From Candidatus Hydrogenedentota bacterium (GTDB taxonomy: Bacteria; UBA8481; J006), in NCBI GenBank assembly GCA_003697085.1, contig RFFU01000139.1, positions 1 through 6,307 on the forward strand: DNA of 6,307 nt, given 5' to 3'. The notes beneath the pieces are model-generated. The model saw only the letters and a list, made by a program, of their open reading frames with translations, searched no databases and had not been told where the DNA came from. This document shows positions 311 to 6,158 of this stretch, piece after piece (position 1 is the stretch's first letter; every line of letters begins with the position of its first letter). Made by a program: the position numbers and the translations under genes.

Positions 311-1123
311 TTACGAGTGCTCCTGCCGGCGCAAGATCGCCGAGGCGGTGCGGTGACAGAAAATCACCGTCGCCAGTGTGTAGGCGAAGATGTACAGCAG
401 CGCGGCACCGGTTCCGTCCTCCCAGCGATAGGTTCGTTCGAGCGTTTCCTGAAAACGGCGCAAGGGAACGAAGGACGGGAGAATAACATAGATCGCATGA
501 CTGATCGCGGACACGGTTCGTGCCGCCAATTTGCCCCAGGGATGGGCAAGGGTTTGCGCCACGCCTTTCGCCACAACGGCCAACTGATAGAAACTCTGTT
601 CGTTGAGGAAGAGGAAGGCCATCAGAACGAGGGCGGGGTGGATGAAGGTCCCCAGAAGGAGGACCCAGGAGAGCGCGATCGCAAGCGAAAAGATCTTGTT
701 CAGGATCACGACGGGGAAGGCGGTTGGAAACGGCACGCCCTTCCAGAAAAGAAAGGCGCATCCACCAGCGAAGAGGAGCAGATAAGCGAGGGAGCCGACG
801 AAAAGAAGGGCGGCGAGATTGGCGGCCAGATAGTTCTCGGCCGAACAGGGCCTGGTGAAGACCATCTTCAGCAGCCGTTGACGTTTGTGATGATCAAGGC
901 TCATCGCGGCCGCGATCAGAAGAATCAAGAAGATCAATCCGTCCGCCACCTCGACAAGCGTCCTGACGAAATCGAAATCGAGGTTCGCGGAGGTGAAGAG
1001 AAAGAAGGGAATGATGAAGAAGAGCGGCATCACGGAGAAGAAAAAGGCGAGGACGAGGAGAAGCCTGTTTCTGACGAGAAAGAGGATCTGCAGTTTGACA
1101 TTGCTCAGGAAGCGCTTCTTCAT
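311..1123 (-). CDS. ABC-2-type transporter permease
   Basis: This 270-residue integral membrane protein forms the transport channel for the ATPase just upstream. It has about six hydrophobic segments: roughly 21-43 (LLLVLAFFFSVMPLFFIIPF), 60-74, 101-127, 135-158, 160-174 and 238-256. The basic N-terminus (MKKRFLSNVK) and the loop at 77-92 (DHHKRQRLLKMVFTRPCS) fit the ABC-2 pattern. In that pattern a cytoplasmic segment after the second span contacts the ATPase. No solute-binding protein is encoded nearby, which favours export over import, though one could lie outside the window. I see no residue motif that reveals a substrate. The start is fixed by the ATGA overlap and the AGGAGGAG 5 nt upstream, and the TAA stop is at 313-311. 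It is the last gene of the block and is followed after 22 nt by a hairpin. Confidence 0.88.
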   Translation of the reverse strand: MKKRFLSNVKLQILFLVRNRLLLVLAFFFSVMPLFFIIPFFLFTSANLDFDFVRTLVEVADGLIFLILLIAAAMSLDHHKRQRLLKMVFTRPCSAENYLAANLAALLFVGSLAYLLLFAGGCAFLFWKGVPFPTAFPVVILNKIFSLAIALSWVLLLGTFIHPALVLMAFLFLNEQSFYQLAVVAKGVAQTLAHPWGKLAARTVSAISHAIYVILPSFVPLRRFQETLERTYRWEDGTGAALLYIFAYTLATVIFCHRTASAILRRQEHS

Positions 1124-2145
1124 CCGCGCTCCTCCTCATTGCTTCCGCCAACCGCCGGCTCCTCCCCTTCATCCACCGTTCCGCTCGCGAACGGCGCCCC
1201 TGCGCTCGTCCCAAGAACGGCGTTTTCTTCCGTCTTTTCCTCTCCCTCCCGGACCCGCTCGACGAAGACCTCCTCGAGCGTGCGCTTGCGGAAGCGGCAT
1301 TCAAACAGCGTTCCTCCCCGCGCCGTTAAGGTATGGATGAACTCTTCGATTTCGCCGGCCGGCAGTTCCCCCTTCCACTCGGTTTCCGTCTTCTGAAGCA
1401 CCGTGAAGGAAGGTGGAGGGTCTGTGAAGGGCGAGCACCGGATTTCGTAGCAGTTCGACCCGACGCGCAGGATCTCCTCCAGTTCTCCGTCCAGGATGAC
1501 TTCTCCCTTGTTCAGGATCGCCACCCGGTTACAGATCATCTCGACCTCGGAGAGAACGTGAGAATTGAGAATCACCGTGGTTCCACGGCGGTTGCGCTTC
1601 AGAAGGATGTCGCGGAACTCCTTGACGATGACGGGATCCAGGCCGCGCGTGGGCTCATCGAGGAAGAGGACTTCGGGGTCGTTGATGAGGCTGGCGGCGA
1701 TTCCGAGCTTCTGTTTCATTCCCTTGGAACACTTCGTCAGCCGCATCTTCCGCCACTTCGCCATTCCGACCTCTTCCAGAGCGGCCTCGAGGCGATGCGG
1801 CGGAATCGGCGTGTCGTAGAGCGAGGCGTAATAGCGCAAGGCCTCCTCGACGGTGAGATAGAGCGGGTAATGCGGCTCCTCCGGAAGATACGCGACCTTC
1901 TCGAAAAGCGCGCTTCCGATCTCGGGACGTTCGCCGTTGAGCCGAACGGAACCCGCGGTGGGACGCAACAGGCCGAGGAAGCAATACATTGCGGTCGATT
2001 TTCCGGCGCCGTTGGGGCCGAGCAATCCGAAGATGTCTCCGCGCCGCACGCAAAAATCGACTCCCTTGAGCGCCTCGACCGAACGGCGGAAGAGCGTTCC
2101 CCGAAAACGTTTCCGCAGTCCCTCGACCTCCAAAACCGCCGTCAT
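1120..2145 (-). CDS. ABC transporter ATP-binding protein (ABC-2 exporter type)
   Basis: This 341-residue protein hydrolyses ATP to drive the permease encoded next. It has Walker A GPNGAGKST (43-51), and LPEEP in place of the Q-loop glutamine (about 87-91), a change I recall in many ABC-2-type ATPases. The signature follows as CSKGMKQKLGIA (139-150), then Walker B VLFLDEPTRGLDP (159-171, catalytic Glu164) and the switch His196 in NSHVLSE. The nucleotide-binding domain ends near 225. A further domain (about 230-300, ending RKRTLEEVFVERV) is usual for CcmA-, NatA- or drug-exporter-type ATPases. The last 40 or so residues are acidic and low in complexity (GEEKTEEN, DEGEEP) and may be a disordered tail. 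The ATG at 2145 has GGGAG 4 nt upstream, and the stop overlaps the permease start by ATGA. The substrate is unknown. The redox gene upstream hints at envelope or cofactor biogenesis, which is inference only. Confidence 0.93.
   Translation of the reverse strand: MTAVLEVEGLRKRFRGTLFRRSVEALKGVDFCVRRGDIFGLLGPNGAGKSTAMYCFLGLLRPTAGSVRLNGERPEIGSALFEKVAYLPEEPHYPLYLTVEEALRYYASLYDTPIPPHRLEAALEEVGMAKWRKMRLTKCSKGMKQKLGIAASLINDPEVLFLDEPTRGLDPVIVKEFRDILLKRNRRGTTVILNSHVLSEVEMICNRVAILNKGEVILDGELEEILRVGSNCYEIRCSPFTDPPPSFTVLQKTETEWKGELPAGEIEEFIHTLTARGGTLFECRFRKRTLEEVFVERVREGEEKTEENAVLGTSAGAPFASGTVDEGEEPAVGGSNEEERG
1129..1136 (-). promoter_or_regulatory. Ribosome binding site of the permease, inside the ATPase gene
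   Basis: The minus strand reads AGGAGGAG here, 5 nt before the ATG at 1123. It lies in the last codons of the ATPase gene. With the ATGA overlap it supports tight translational coupling of the two transporter subunits. Confidence 0.7.
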
Positions 2146-2191: not shown

Positions 2192-2234
2192 GAGCAACGG
2201 AGGTCGTTGGAAAAACCAACGAGCCCCGTTGCTC
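2192..2234 (-). promoter_or_regulatory. 43-nt intergenic hairpin between the thioredoxin-like and ABC genes
   Basis: On the minus strand GAGCAACGG pairs perfectly with CCGTTGCTC, and inside it TCGTTGG pairs with CCAACGA around a TTTTT loop. Between the two helices there is one G-C pair, one G-U pair and one C-C mismatch. The first two bases of the stem belong to the TGA stop codon. No T-run follows the 3' arm (it reads CGTACGG), so it is not a standard intrinsic terminator. An mRNA-stability or processing element that sets different levels for the gene before and the genes after it is the likeliest role. Confidence 0.7.
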
Positions 2235-2964
2235 ATTTCTTTCCTCCAACACAGAATCGCCGATTCAGTTCCCGTATCACGGCGGCGGTATCCCGCCCTT
2301 CAAGGTCTTCCTTTCGCAAGGCGGCGATGACTTTCTTCGCCGTGCCGCAGGAACACTCCTTGACACTGCCCTGCTCGCAACCGCAGGGGCACGGCATCGT
2401 CTTGGCAATTACGACGGCGCGGGGCGAGAGCCCTTCGAGCAGCCCCTCCGATTTCTCCTTCTTCTCACGCTTCCGCCTGGAATTCTCGACCTCCTCAAGA
2501 AATCGCTCCTTCGTCATACCTCCCCCCTTCGAGAAAACCTCATTGTTGGGCGAAAGAAGCGGTTCCAGCGAGAGGTCGGCGTTGCTGATCATTCCGATCT
2601 CGTAGAGTTGAACTCGGCCGAACGGACCGATGACGATCGTCCGCGGATAACTCATCACGTCGTATCGCTCCGAAATGACGCCGTCCTCGTCGAGGAGCAG
2701 AGGAAACGTAAGGTCGAATTTTTCCCGGAAAGCCGCGACCTTCTCCCGGTTCTCCTCCACATTGATGCCGACGAGAAGGAGGTTATTATCGCGGTTCCTG
2801 CGGTAGAATCGTTCGAGTTCCGGCATTTCTCTTCGACAAGGACCGCACCAGGTCGTGAAGAAGTTGAGTATGATCGTCTTCCGGCCGACGTGGTCCGAAA
2901 GGGTAAAGGTGTCTCCCTCGAGGGTTTCGAGCGTGAATTCGGGCGCGCGATCCGACCCAGCCAA
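2233..2964 (-). CDS. TlpA-like thioredoxin domain fused to a Cys-rich CcmH/PCYCGC-like domain
   Basis: The 243 residues begin, in this frame, at a TTG directly after an in-frame TGA. Residues about 5-140 are a TlpA/redoxin fold: RAPEFTLETLEGDTF, then the active site WCGPC (39-43), LLVGINVEE, and a cis-proline at SYPRT (Pro107). Such domains reduce or exchange disulfides outside the cytoplasm, often for cytochrome c maturation. A charged linker (about 150-180) leads to a compact C-terminal domain with six Cys: MPCPCGC (Cys192, 194, 196), ECSCG (Cys204, 206) and Cys238 near the end. It resembles the short Cys-rich CcmH-type or PCYCGC-type domains, so heme, metal or thiol handling is likely. The TTG has no Shine-Dalgarno motif and the protein would lack an export signal. 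The likely signal anchor lies upstream in another frame, so the true gene probably began at 3101. The stop runs into a hairpin before the ABC genes. Confidence 0.8.
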   Translation of the reverse strand: MAGSDRAPEFTLETLEGDTFTLSDHVGRKTIILNFFTTWCGPCRREMPELERFYRRNRDNNLLLVGINVEENREKVAAFREKFDLTFPLLLDEDGVISERYDVMSYPRTIVIGPFGRVQLYEIGMISNADLSLEPLLSPNNEVFSKGGGMTKERFLEEVENSRRKREKKEKSEGLLEGLSPRAVVIAKTMPCPCGCEQGSVKECSCGTAKKVIAALRKEDLEGRDTAAVIRELNRRFCVGGKK

Positions 2965-3101
2965 TCATTCGCCGTCACGTACGGAGAGATCGATTCCTCG
3001 GCCGTCTTTTCCGTGATCTTTTCCTTCATCGGGTACTGGAGCACGGCGACACCGAGAAGCGAGACGGTGATCCAGAGTTTTACCGGGGAACGATTCGGCA
3101 T
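2965..3101 (-). pseudogene. Out-of-frame signal-anchor segment of the thioredoxin-like gene
   Basis: From the ATG at 3101 the minus strand encodes MPNRSPVK, a hydrophobic stretch LWITVSLLGVAVL, then a polar linker (QYPMKEKITEKTAEESISPY) ending VTANDW. This is the layout of a signal peptide or membrane anchor plus tether. An in-frame TAA two codons before the ATG fixes this start. By my count about three quarters of third codon positions are G or C, as expected for real coding DNA here. Just after this point the frame turns into nonsense (RIARPNSRSK), while the thioredoxin domain begins one frame over. A single-base loss near 2960-2970, in the genome or in the assembly, would join the two. The annotated extent stops where the downstream frame takes over. 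The alternatives are a chance ORF, or a separate short leader peptide. Confidence 0.55.
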
Positions 3102-3208: not shown

Positions 3209-3480
3209 AAAAAACCACCGAAGACGCGGAATAAGAAAAAGGGAAAAGGAAAAGGGGAAAAGGCAAAAAGAAACCACGGAAAACACGAAATGACACGGAA
3301 GGAAAGAAAACCGCGGAAAACACGGAGGACACGGAAAAGGGGCAAGCGCAAGCGCAAGGACAACGGCAGGGGCAGGAGAAAGGCAAAGGGAAAAAGGAAA
3401 AAGGCAAAAGAAAACCTCGGAATTCACAGAAGAACACGGAAAAAGGAAAAAGAAGGAACGGAAAAGGGGGAACACGGGCG
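3209..3480. repeat. Composite purine-rich intergenic repeat tract
   Basis: The plus strand is almost entirely A and G with scattered C. Two kinds of block alternate. The first is a roughly 30-bp unit of three sub-repeats such as ACCACGGAAA, ACACGAAA and TGACACGGAAGG, with copies near 3214-3231 (poor), 3273-3302, 3310-3340 and 3414-3446. The second is a G/A block: GGGAAAAGGAAAAGG leading to GGCAAAAAGAAACC (3241-3275), with a second copy at 3388-3416. Each G/A copy leads straight into a CACGGAA unit. The open frames crossing the tract on both strands are artefacts of this composition (Lys/Arg-rich one way, Phe/Ser/Pro-rich the other). The tract fills most of the 3102-3510 spacer, where I find no gene. 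Confidence 0.85.
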
Positions 3481-3510: not shown

Positions 3511-4122
3511 TTACCCTCCGGGGCGAAGCAGTCTTTTGAGGCTCCGAACGTCGGTGAGTTCGATGTGATCTTGATAGATCTTCACGCGGGAGAGTTCGCT
3601 GAATTCCTTGAGCGCCCTGGTGACTTCGGGCAGCTCCAACCCCGCGAATTCGGCGATCTCCTCGGGAGACAACGGAACCAACGGCGGCCCCGTCTCCTGC
3701 TCGACCGCCTTCCACAAAAGCATATCGACGACCCGCAAGCGGGGATTCTCGATGGAGAGATTGGCGAGATGGCGATAGGACTGGACGATGCGGTGGGAGA
3801 GAATACGGCCGAGCCGGGCCGCGAAGGCCGGCTGGGCCTTTACCAGCGCCTTGAGACCGGCCAGATCGAGCTCGAGCACTGTAACCTCGGTCATCGCCAG
3901 CGCGGTCGCCGTCCGCGGTTTGTGCTCCAAGACTCCCATCTCCCCGAAGATGTCTCCGGGCTTGAGGATCGCCAGCGTCTTCTCGACCCCCTCGGATACC
4001 TTCGTGATCGCAACCTGCCCCTCATGGATCACATAGCAGTTCTTCCCTTCCTCGAACTCACAGAAGATGACATCCCCCTCCTTGAAGACGCGGCCGAATT
4101 TCTCGAGCAGAACGGGATTCAT
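3511..4122 (-). CDS. CRP/FNR-family transcriptional regulator
   Basis: This 203-residue protein has a cyclic-nucleotide-binding domain at about 10-95 and a dimerisation helix at about 96-125. A winged helix-turn-helix follows at about 148-195, with LSPEEIAEFAGLELPEVTRA as its core. The phosphate-binding cassette is good: GDIFGEMGVLEHKPRTATAL places Gly60-Glu61 and Arg70-Thr71 where cNMP-binding family members hold the phosphate and ribose. I see no FNR-type N-terminal Cys cluster, so cAMP, c-di-GMP or another nucleotide is likelier than an iron-sulfur cluster. I chose the ATG at 4122 because homology starts there and it overlaps the upstream TGA as ATGA. A longer reading to 4260 would add 46 low-quality residues that overlap the previous gene. 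TGGGAG lies 10 nt upstream of the ATG. It is the last gene of the regulatory operon and probably acts with the sigma factor and the TPR protein. Confidence 0.9.
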   Translation of the reverse strand: MNPVLLEKFGRVFKEGDVIFCEFEEGKNCYVIHEGQVAITKVSEGVEKTLAILKPGDIFGEMGVLEHKPRTATALAMTEVTVLELDLAGLKALVKAQPAFAARLGRILSHRIVQSYRHLANLSIENPRLRVVDMLLWKAVEQETGPPLVPLSPEEIAEFAGLELPEVTRALKEFSELSRVKIYQDHIELTDVRSLKRLLRPGG

Positions 4123-4772
4123 GACGGGGAGGCTCCCAGTGTCTCGAGAAACCCCCGGAGCCGTTCGTAGGCGCCCATCGGCCGCGGATCCTCGGGGAAT
4201 TCTTGAATCAATCTCTTGTAGATTTCCAAGGCGGGTTCCGGTTCGCCGTCCTTCTCGCAAAGATTGGCCAAATGCAACGCGGCCTCGAGGCGCTCTTCGC
4301 CGGAAGGATCCGTCTCGAGGAAACGGGCATAGGCGTAACGGGCAGCGCGGATCATATTCTTCCGCCGAAAGCGATCGGCGATCATCCGCAGCCCGGCATT
4401 CCGGCTCATCGTTCCCGCCATTCCGCCGCGCATCCTCCTCACGATCATCTCGTCGATCTCCCGGAGTTCAGCACAGAGGGAGGTGATGACCTTGAGAGCG
4501 ACTTCGACGTTCCGGGCCAATAACGCCTCGAGTTCCGCGACATCGAGGACATTGGCGGAGACGTTCGTGACGGCGCGGGCGGTACCGATCCGGCGCTTTC
4601 CTCCGAGGGAGTCGGAAAGTCCGAGGAGCTCGCCGGGGTGAATACGCCGCGGCGACGAATCCCCCGCCTCCCGCGAGAGTTCGACGGTGCCCGAACGAAC
4701 GATGAATATCCTTCCGGAGGGATCATTTTCGAAGTAGAGAATGGCTCCCTCTTTGTAAACTTCCTCCTTCAC
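4119..4772 (-). CDS. Cyclic-nucleotide-binding-fold protein with TPR-like C-terminus, no HTH
   Basis: This 217-residue protein starts at GTG. Residues about 5-100 form a CRP-type beta-roll: YKEGAILYFENDPSGRIFIV, a SGTVEL strand, a GELLGLSDSLGG turn, then RRIGTARAVT before the long helix (about 78-115). The phosphate-binding cassette is degenerate: after GE there is no close match to the usual (A/G)x(L/F)...R(T/S/A)AT pattern, though RIGTARA could supply the Arg. Ligand binding is therefore uncertain. Residues about 139-212 are helical and TPR-like, with AARYAYARFLETDP, then AALHLANLCEKDGEPEPALE and IYKRLIQEFPEDP. No DNA-binding domain is present, so it is more likely a sensing or scaffold partner than a repressor or activator. 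It lies 27 nt after the sigma gene and overlaps the next gene by ATGA, so the second CRP-fold protein next door is its obvious partner. Confidence 0.85.
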   Translation of the reverse strand: MKEEVYKEGAILYFENDPSGRIFIVRSGTVELSREAGDSSPRRIHPGELLGLSDSLGGKRRIGTARAVTNVSANVLDVAELEALLARNVEVALKVITSLCAELREIDEMIVRRMRGGMAGTMSRNAGLRMIADRFRRKNMIRAARYAYARFLETDPSGEERLEAALHLANLCEKDGEPEPALEIYKRLIQEFPEDPRPMGAYERLRGFLETLGASPS

Positions 4773-4799: not shown

Positions 4800-6158
4800 T
4801 CAGGCCTCATTCCTCATCTCCGTCAGCATCGAGAAGAGTTCGGCCGCCAGGCGTGAATGGCGCAGTTTCTTGAAGGCGCGGGATTCGATCTGACGGACCC
4901 GTTCGCGCGTGATTCCCATCATCTGCCCCACCTCCTCAAGCGTGTGTTCCGGACTGCCGTTCAGCCCGAAACGCAGCTGAAGAATTCTGCGCTCTTTTTC
5001 GTTCAGAGTCGATAACATTTTTTGAAGATGCTCGGAAAAGGCCAGGGAAAGCACGGTCCGGTAGGGCGAGACGGCGCTGGTGTCCTCGACGAGATCAGCC
5101 AAAGAAGATTCCTGCGCGCTGGCCAGCGGGGCCTCCAACGACGACGGCTCTTGGGCGACCTTCATAATCTCGAGAAGACGCGGTTCCGAGATATCGAGTT
5201 CCTCGGCCATCTCCCTCAAGGTCGGTTCCCGCCCGAGCCGCTGGGAGATCTTTCTGGAGACGCGGATCCAACGATTGATCGAATCGGCCATATGAACCGG
5301 AACGCGGATGAGACGTCCCTGGTCGGCGATGGCGCGGCGCACCGCCTGGCGGATCCACCACGAGGCGTACGTCGAGAATTTATACCCCATCCGGTAATCA
5401 AAGCGCTCGATCGCGCGGATCAAACCGAGATTTCCCTCGTTGATCAGATCGAGCAGATGAAGACCATGTGAGGTGTAGCGCCGAGCGATGGAGATGACGA
5501 GCCGGAGGTTGCTCTCGATCAACCTCCGTTGCGCCTCGGCGAACTTGTGCTCTTCCTTCACTAAACGACGCGCCAATGGAACGAGATCCTTCTTGCGCCG
5601 GCCCGGAATCCGCGGAGGAGGCTCTTCGCCGGCGATCGCGGGATCAGGATGATAACGCCTCAACTCCGCGGCGCTCATCCCCGCTTTCTCCAGAATCCGC
5701 GCGATCTTTTGGCGGCTTTCCAATACGATCTTTCCGTATTTCTTCTCCTCCGCGTGGGTCAGAAGGGGTATTCGACTGACGTCCCGTATGTAGATTTGCA
5801 AGGGATCCTGGGAGGCGGCAAGCGGTTTGGAGGCGGATTCCCGTTCGCCGCCGAGATCGGTCACCGAGATGCCGTCCGCCGCCAACGCCTCCTCGATCCG
5901 AGCCACCTGCGCCGGGTCGGCGTTCGGCTCGTCCCCCGCCGCAACCTCCAACAGCAACTCGGCGTCGATTCGGTTGTCCACGATTGCGTCATTGAGCGAA
6001 TTCCGCAACGCCTCCGGCAAGGAAGCCAATCCCCGCTTCGAGGAACGCCGCCGCTTTCGCGCTCTTGCCGAGGGACTCCTCTTCGTCCCCCGCCGCGCGC
6101 GTCTCTTTCCGTCCTGCTTTCGCGTCTCTCTCGCGCCTCTCTCTTTCTTCGCGCTCAT
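4800..6158 (-). CDS. RpoD/SigA-like sigma-70 family RNA polymerase sigma factor
   Basis: This 452-residue sigma factor directs RNA polymerase to promoters. A very basic tail (about residues 1-43) comes first. A region 1.1-like stretch follows (about 48-105), then region 1.2 (about 117-145, [17 protein letters not shown]), a spacer rich in Pro and charged residues (about 150-207), region 2 (about 212-282, [17 protein letters not shown] and [14 protein letters not shown]), region 3 (about 291-368), and region 4 (about 378-440, with [20 protein letters not shown] as its helix-turn-helix). Regions 2.4 and 4.2 are of the primary or group 2 type, so it should read promoters of the -35/-10 class. 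The company of a LuxR-type regulator and two CRP-fold proteins, with no dnaG or rpsU nearby, makes a group 2 (RpoS-like) role as plausible as the main sigma, so I give no symbol. The ATG is backed by AAGGAGG 11 nt upstream. Confidence 0.95.

Follow-up and report, generated by a model that had tools for sequence, protein, structure and literature searches.

What is a thioredoxin-like protein with a cysteine-rich tail doing beside an ABC transporter? The window (the whole 6,307-nucleotide stretch analysed here) carries on its minus strand an open reading frame, 2233-2964, in which a TlpA domain of ResA/CcmG type is followed by a 64-residue tail with six cysteines, together with genes for an ABC ATPase and an ABC-2-like permease. 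The features are as follows.

2233..2964, minus strand: fusion ORF (TlpA domain plus CcmH-like tail), 243 aa from TTG; full-length relatives L067/L071, L069/L072, L073, and L098
2587..2952, minus strand: TlpA/ResA-type domain, residues 5-126; AhpC-TSA 7e-28, Redoxin 8e-22, ResA 1st9 1.4e-21
2836..2847, minus strand: active-site CGPC, residues 40-43; aligned with ResA CEPC and invariant in five fusions
2236..2427, minus strand: CcmH-like tail, residues 180-243; PF03918 matches of orthologous tails, hhalign 98%, fold match to 2hl7 and 2kw0
2389-2391, 2383-2385, 2377-2379, 2353-2355, 2347-2349, and 2251-2253, minus strand: tail Cys codons C192, C194, C196, C204, C206, and C238, read from the sequence
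1120..2145, minus strand: ABC ATPase, 341 aa, operon gene 2; ABC_tran 1.4e-27, 51% identity over 286 aa to the neighbour in genome G262
311..1123, minus strand: ABC-2-like permease, 270 aa, operon gene 3; 25% identity, E 1e-16 to the neighbour in G262, aligned family A4/A11
2955..3101, minus strand: putative signal anchor MPNRSPVKLWITVSLLGVAVLQYPMKEK..., in another frame than the fusion ORF; ATG at 3101, weak similarity to the anchors of relatives

Two domains in one chain

An earlier note on this DNA had described a TlpA domain fused to a six-cysteine C-terminal domain, and this architecture is confirmed: the reading frame holds WCGPC (C40 and C43) as well as the six tail cysteines, and the interval the note gave, 2233-2420, covers the tail. 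The TlpA domain scores 97 bits against PF00578 and 78 bits against PF08534; its closest named relative, in NCBIfam as in the PDB, is ResA, and a Glu in the domain aligns with the position of ResA Glu80. Scores against the named subfamilies lie below cut-off (ResA NF002854, 100.6 against 170; DsbE TIGR00385, 43 against 123), and by these sequence matches the domain is inside the superfamily and is no certified ResA or DsbE.

The tail of the window itself reaches only 11-12 bits against PF03918, where the Pfam gathering cut-off is 25. A comparison of the orthologous tails and of the predicted fold is more informative. Specifically, i) when whole genomes were searched with PF03918, the fusion tail was the best match in G262 (24.1 bits), G419 (23.4), and G394 (19.7), and the G419 tail (L073) taken alone scores 26.1 bits, above the cut-off; ii) hhalign gives 98% when six CcmH proteins are compared with a profile built from four tails, a partly selected comparison, five of the six CcmHs having been found through the tail; iii) when the Cys motif is preserved and the other residues are scrambled, 0 of 1000 shuffles score as high as observed for three tails and 1 of 1000 for the fourth, the CcmH set again being partly selected via the tail; iv) the best two matches of the tail profile among all PDB sequences are the CcmH entries 2kw0 (E 0.005) and 2hl7 (E 0.009); and v) the tail, modelled alone because a full-length fold search showed the thioredoxin domain only, is predicted (pLDDT 80) to fold into three helices, the Cys motif falling between the first and the second, and a Foldseek search of this model against 350,542 PDB chains places the CcmH entries 2hl7 and 2kw0 first (probability 0.90). 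The two CcmH structures match the tail model with TMq 0.71 and 0.77 and structural Z of 8.5 (2hl7) and 7.7 (2kw0); the Foldseek E-values are weak (1.5) at 67 residues, so the weight of the fold match lies in its ranking and in its agreement with the sequence. We conclude from the profiles and the predicted fold that the tail is a CcmH-type domain, as the earlier note had proposed. The alternative it had offered, PCYCGC (PF13798), is rejected as the tail family: the window tail and three orthologous tails give no PF13798 match up to E = 1.

Like CcmH/NrfF (PF03918), the tail would thus be a three-helix domain whose Cys motif separates the first helix from the second, and the CxCGC..CxCGTA variant occurs also in stand-alone CcmH proteins of other phyla; the CcmH encoded in the ccm locus of the window's own genome (G000) carries CPCGC as in the fusion tail, and the CcmH proteins of other genomes carry CxCGC..CxCGTA. 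Unlike CcmH/NrfF, the tail stands behind a TlpA domain, lacks a transmembrane helix of its own after the domain, has more cysteines, including one after the third helix (window, G262, and G394) where CcmH has Gly, and in most fusions falls under the Pfam cut-off. Matches of the tail to Mg-chelatase/ComM and SecA are short CPCG..C look-alikes in which similarity stops at the motif, and L041, L042, and L048, returned by the tail search, were dismissed as chance matches.

Cysteines, gene start, and distribution

The tail cysteines form the motifs CPCGC (C192/C194/C196) and CSCG (C204/C206), and with the 0.9% Cys of the other window proteins as background, finding six or more within the 62 C-terminal residues has P = 2e-5. 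In the G262 and G394 tails Cys is found at 192, 196, 204, 206, about 209 (an extra one), and 238; in the G419 and G421 (Auribacterota-type) tails at 192, 194, 204, and 206. Conservation of the cysteines among homologues, on which the earlier note had staked its reading, is therefore found for C192, C204, and C206, invariant in five fusions, and not for 194, 196, and 238, which vary. The joint absence of C196 and C238 from G419 and G421 may represent one event, and the sequences give only hints that these two residues pair with each other. The first-loop cysteines of the tails are CPCGC, CPRGC, or CPCGR, not CxxC, as against LRCxxC for the redox-active Cys pair in E. coli CcmH.

The first in-frame start of the fusion ORF is TTG, with TGA directly before it. 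Full-length relatives have an anchor and then the TlpA domain, all in one frame, so that an N-terminal membrane anchor is seen in their sequences, whereas the window's candidate anchor is out of frame and resembles theirs weakly (21 of 1000 shuffles are as good). Since this putative anchor lies in another frame than the ORF, the simplest reading is probably that the contig carries a 1-nt frameshift near 2945-2964, through an error of assembly (the genome is a draft) or a real mutation, and the true start of the window's fusion gene is probably ATG 3101.

The fusion is present in five genomes: G000, G262, G394, G419 (Auribacterota), and G421. A scan of 84,980 species, one genome per species, returned three carriers, which points to a rare fusion or to strict search patterns; viral contigs searched with the whole fusion protein gave no relative. 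The window is an entire 6.3-kb contig and the carriers named by record are metagenome-assembled, so misbinning is possible.

Elsewhere in the window, two adjacent minus-strand genes (4119-4772 and 3511-4260) encode proteins with cyclic-nucleotide-binding domains, of which one has a TPR tail and the other a CRP-type helix-turn-helix; they are flanked by an RpoD-like sigma factor (4800-6158) on one side and by the fusion operon on the other. The interval from the CRP-like gene to the fusion gene contains purine-rich degenerate direct repeats (3228-3465; four families, with units such as AAAGAAAACCNCGGAAAACACGGA).

The ABC operon and its relatives

The permease gene overlaps the ATPase gene by 4 nt, and the genes for fusion, ATPase, and permease follow one another in this order in G000, G262, G394, G419, and G421. 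The neighbourhood survey suggested in the earlier note thus finds the TlpA-tail fusion paired with this ABC pair across phyla (five genomes, one order). Beyond fusion, ATPase, and permease, we saw no gene common to the neighbourhoods read, and specifically no common target gene. A close permease type occurs in ten genomes; in nine of them a TlpA gene immediately precedes that of the ATPase, and five of these nine have the tail: the operons of G270, G256, and G106 have an active TlpA and no tail, that of G405 has a TlpA with neither CxxC nor tail, and that of G336 has no TlpA. All five tail-bearing TlpAs retain CxxC; the association of the tail with an active CxxC is not significant in these small samples (P = 0.22). 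TlpA-like proteins that have lost CxxC and bear no tail beside such ABC pairs are those at L095 1796-2458 and L148 3191-3589.

The ATPase scores 91 bits against the CcmA model (cut-off 131.6) and the permease, which has no Pfam or NCBIfam match over cut-off, does not match CcmB; the CcmAB heme pair was accordingly rejected. Solved relatives of the permease family gave no credible sequence match. Weaker permease matches (L142-L147, L149, and L150) belong to other ABC-2 permeases, and no TlpA was recognised next to these. NosFY-type ABC pairs, which belong to copper-enzyme assembly, combine a soluble ATPase with an ABC-2 permease and are linked to extracytoplasmic cofactor assembly; the present pair shares this composition and differs in that no NosD or NosL was recognised in the neighbourhoods read.

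Possible roles: a thiol relay, a metal site, or cytochrome c maturation

The best explanation, to which we give about even credence, is a thiol relay contained in a single chain and linked to an ABC exporter, with a target that is probably other than apocytochrome c. The protein would be a membrane-anchored extracytoplasmic thiol reductase with TlpA/CcmG-type and CcmH-type domains in one chain; electrons would flow from a CcdA/DsbD-type protein to the TlpA CxxC, from there to the Cys set of the CcmH-like tail in the same chain, and from the tail cysteines to a cofactor or Cys-bearing target on which the adjacent ABC exporter acts, the ABC pair exporting that target or its cofactor. The chemistry would follow the CcmG/CcmH exchange, moved inside one chain: CcmG gets reductant via DsbD/CcdA, and for the CcmH dithiol an exchange with both CcmG and apocytochrome has been proposed, whose order and direction are disputed (PMC3601427). 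DsbD_TM/CcdA is present in all ten genomes searched. More tentatively, and somewhat short of even confidence, we see here a Ccm-like redox/export module without heme, in which, in bacteria lacking cytochrome c assembly, a one-chain CcmG-CcmH reductase and a dedicated ABC exporter would mature an extracytoplasmic protein or cofactor that depends on Cys. Of the earlier proposals, the best fit is the undescribed redox or cofactor module next to an ABC-2 transporter; that of a reductant and its partner in one chain stands as to both domain identities and the conserved fusion, and is not supported as to the cytochrome c setting for most relatives. Counting against the relay, the tail Cys pattern differs between lineages, the Auribacterota-type tails lacking C196 and C238, and the window's own copy seems to carry a frameshift. 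The ABC pair, moreover, can work without a relay, since three operons have a tail-less active TlpA, two TlpAs are without CxxC, and one operon is without a TlpA.

The main rival, which we regard as unlikely, is that the tail uses a CcmH scaffold to hold a metal site (Zn, Cu, or Fe-S) and acts as a metallochaperone and not as a dithiol relay; equally doubtful is the division of labour this would imply, with TlpA holding the tail cysteines in reduced form and the ABC pair transporting the metal or a ligand. Every tail does have four closely spaced cysteines (CxC or CxxxC, then CxC), and after CcmH the nearest PDB sequence look-alikes of the tail are the C-terminal zinc-binding peptides of SecA; however, the SecA similarity is confined to the motif while that to CcmH spans all three helices, and the loci read show no conserved metal-handling gene next to the operon.

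We consider it improbable that the protein is a reductase of the ordinary kind for cytochrome c maturation, with CcmG and CcmH naturally fused, that serves the Ccm machinery, although both domains come from that pathway. Ten genomes were searched for Cytochrom_C_asm (CcmC, CcmF, CcsA/ResC), nine with the operon and, in addition, G001, the window's nearest relative. Matches were found in two of the nine, G000 (System I) and G270 (System II-type), and none in the other seven, five of which are 93-98% complete; among the four fusion genomes tested for CcmC/CcmF/CcsA, three have none. This scarcity weakens the cytochrome c maturation role that the earlier note had envisaged, which is not supported for most relatives. 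G000 is the exception: its ccm locus has A, B, C, D, E, F, and H, and since no CcmG was seen there, in this genome alone the fusion could serve cytochromes too, as could five other Redoxin-family proteins. Against such service, G000 has its own CcmH besides these proteins, and the operon lies outside the ccm locus. That locus (L091 2821-8702, on G000:C119) looks like a complete System I set, ccmF, H, E, A, B, C, and D, adjoined by hemN-like and hemG-like genes; its CcmE carries CPSKY, the CcmE variant of System I* (PMC3601427).

That redox is incidental, the TlpA protein being mainly a structural or sensory subunit of the exporter and the tail a decoration, strikes us as highly improbable: same-position TlpA copies without CxxC (L095 and L148) and the operon without TlpA (L096) speak for it, but WCxPC is kept in 8 of 10 TlpA domains beside this type of ABC pair, including all tail-bearing ones.

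Set against known systems, the fusion shares with CcmG/DsbE and ResA the fold, WCxPC, the ResA Glu80 position, a probable membrane anchor, and CcdA/DsbD in the genome, but has a CcmH-type tail and an ABC operon, and most of its carriers lack cytochrome c assembly genes. With System I (CcmAB, CcmG, and CcmH) the operon shares an ABC pair accompanied by TlpA-type and CcmH-type proteins; unlike System I, it has no CcmC, CcmE, or CcmF, its ATPase and permease fail the CcmA and CcmB models, and heme attachment genes are missing from most carriers. Each domain is already known, and the new part, as far as the literature searched goes, is their union in one chain and operon: a search of limited coverage found no report of a CcmG-CcmH fusion or of a TlpA with an ABC-2 pair. 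A natural chain holding both domains would be a simple object for testing CcmG-CcmH electron transfer, useful because the passage of electrons between CcmG and CcmH and its direction are disputed (PMC3601427). The fusion in genomes without cytochrome c assembly genes suggests, in addition, a use of TlpA-CcmH beyond cytochromes, linked to an ABC exporter.

To judge from sequence, cytochrome assembly may not be the only setting in which CcmH-type domains are used. Apart from the fusion, short CcmH-like domains (CACGGC..CDC and CACGGC..CSC) occur at L100 1081-1680 and L104 1489-1926 in proteins without TlpA, one of them behind zinc ribbons; the L104 domain has no Pfam match, and the L100 domain scores 25.4 bits against PF03918, above the cut-off.
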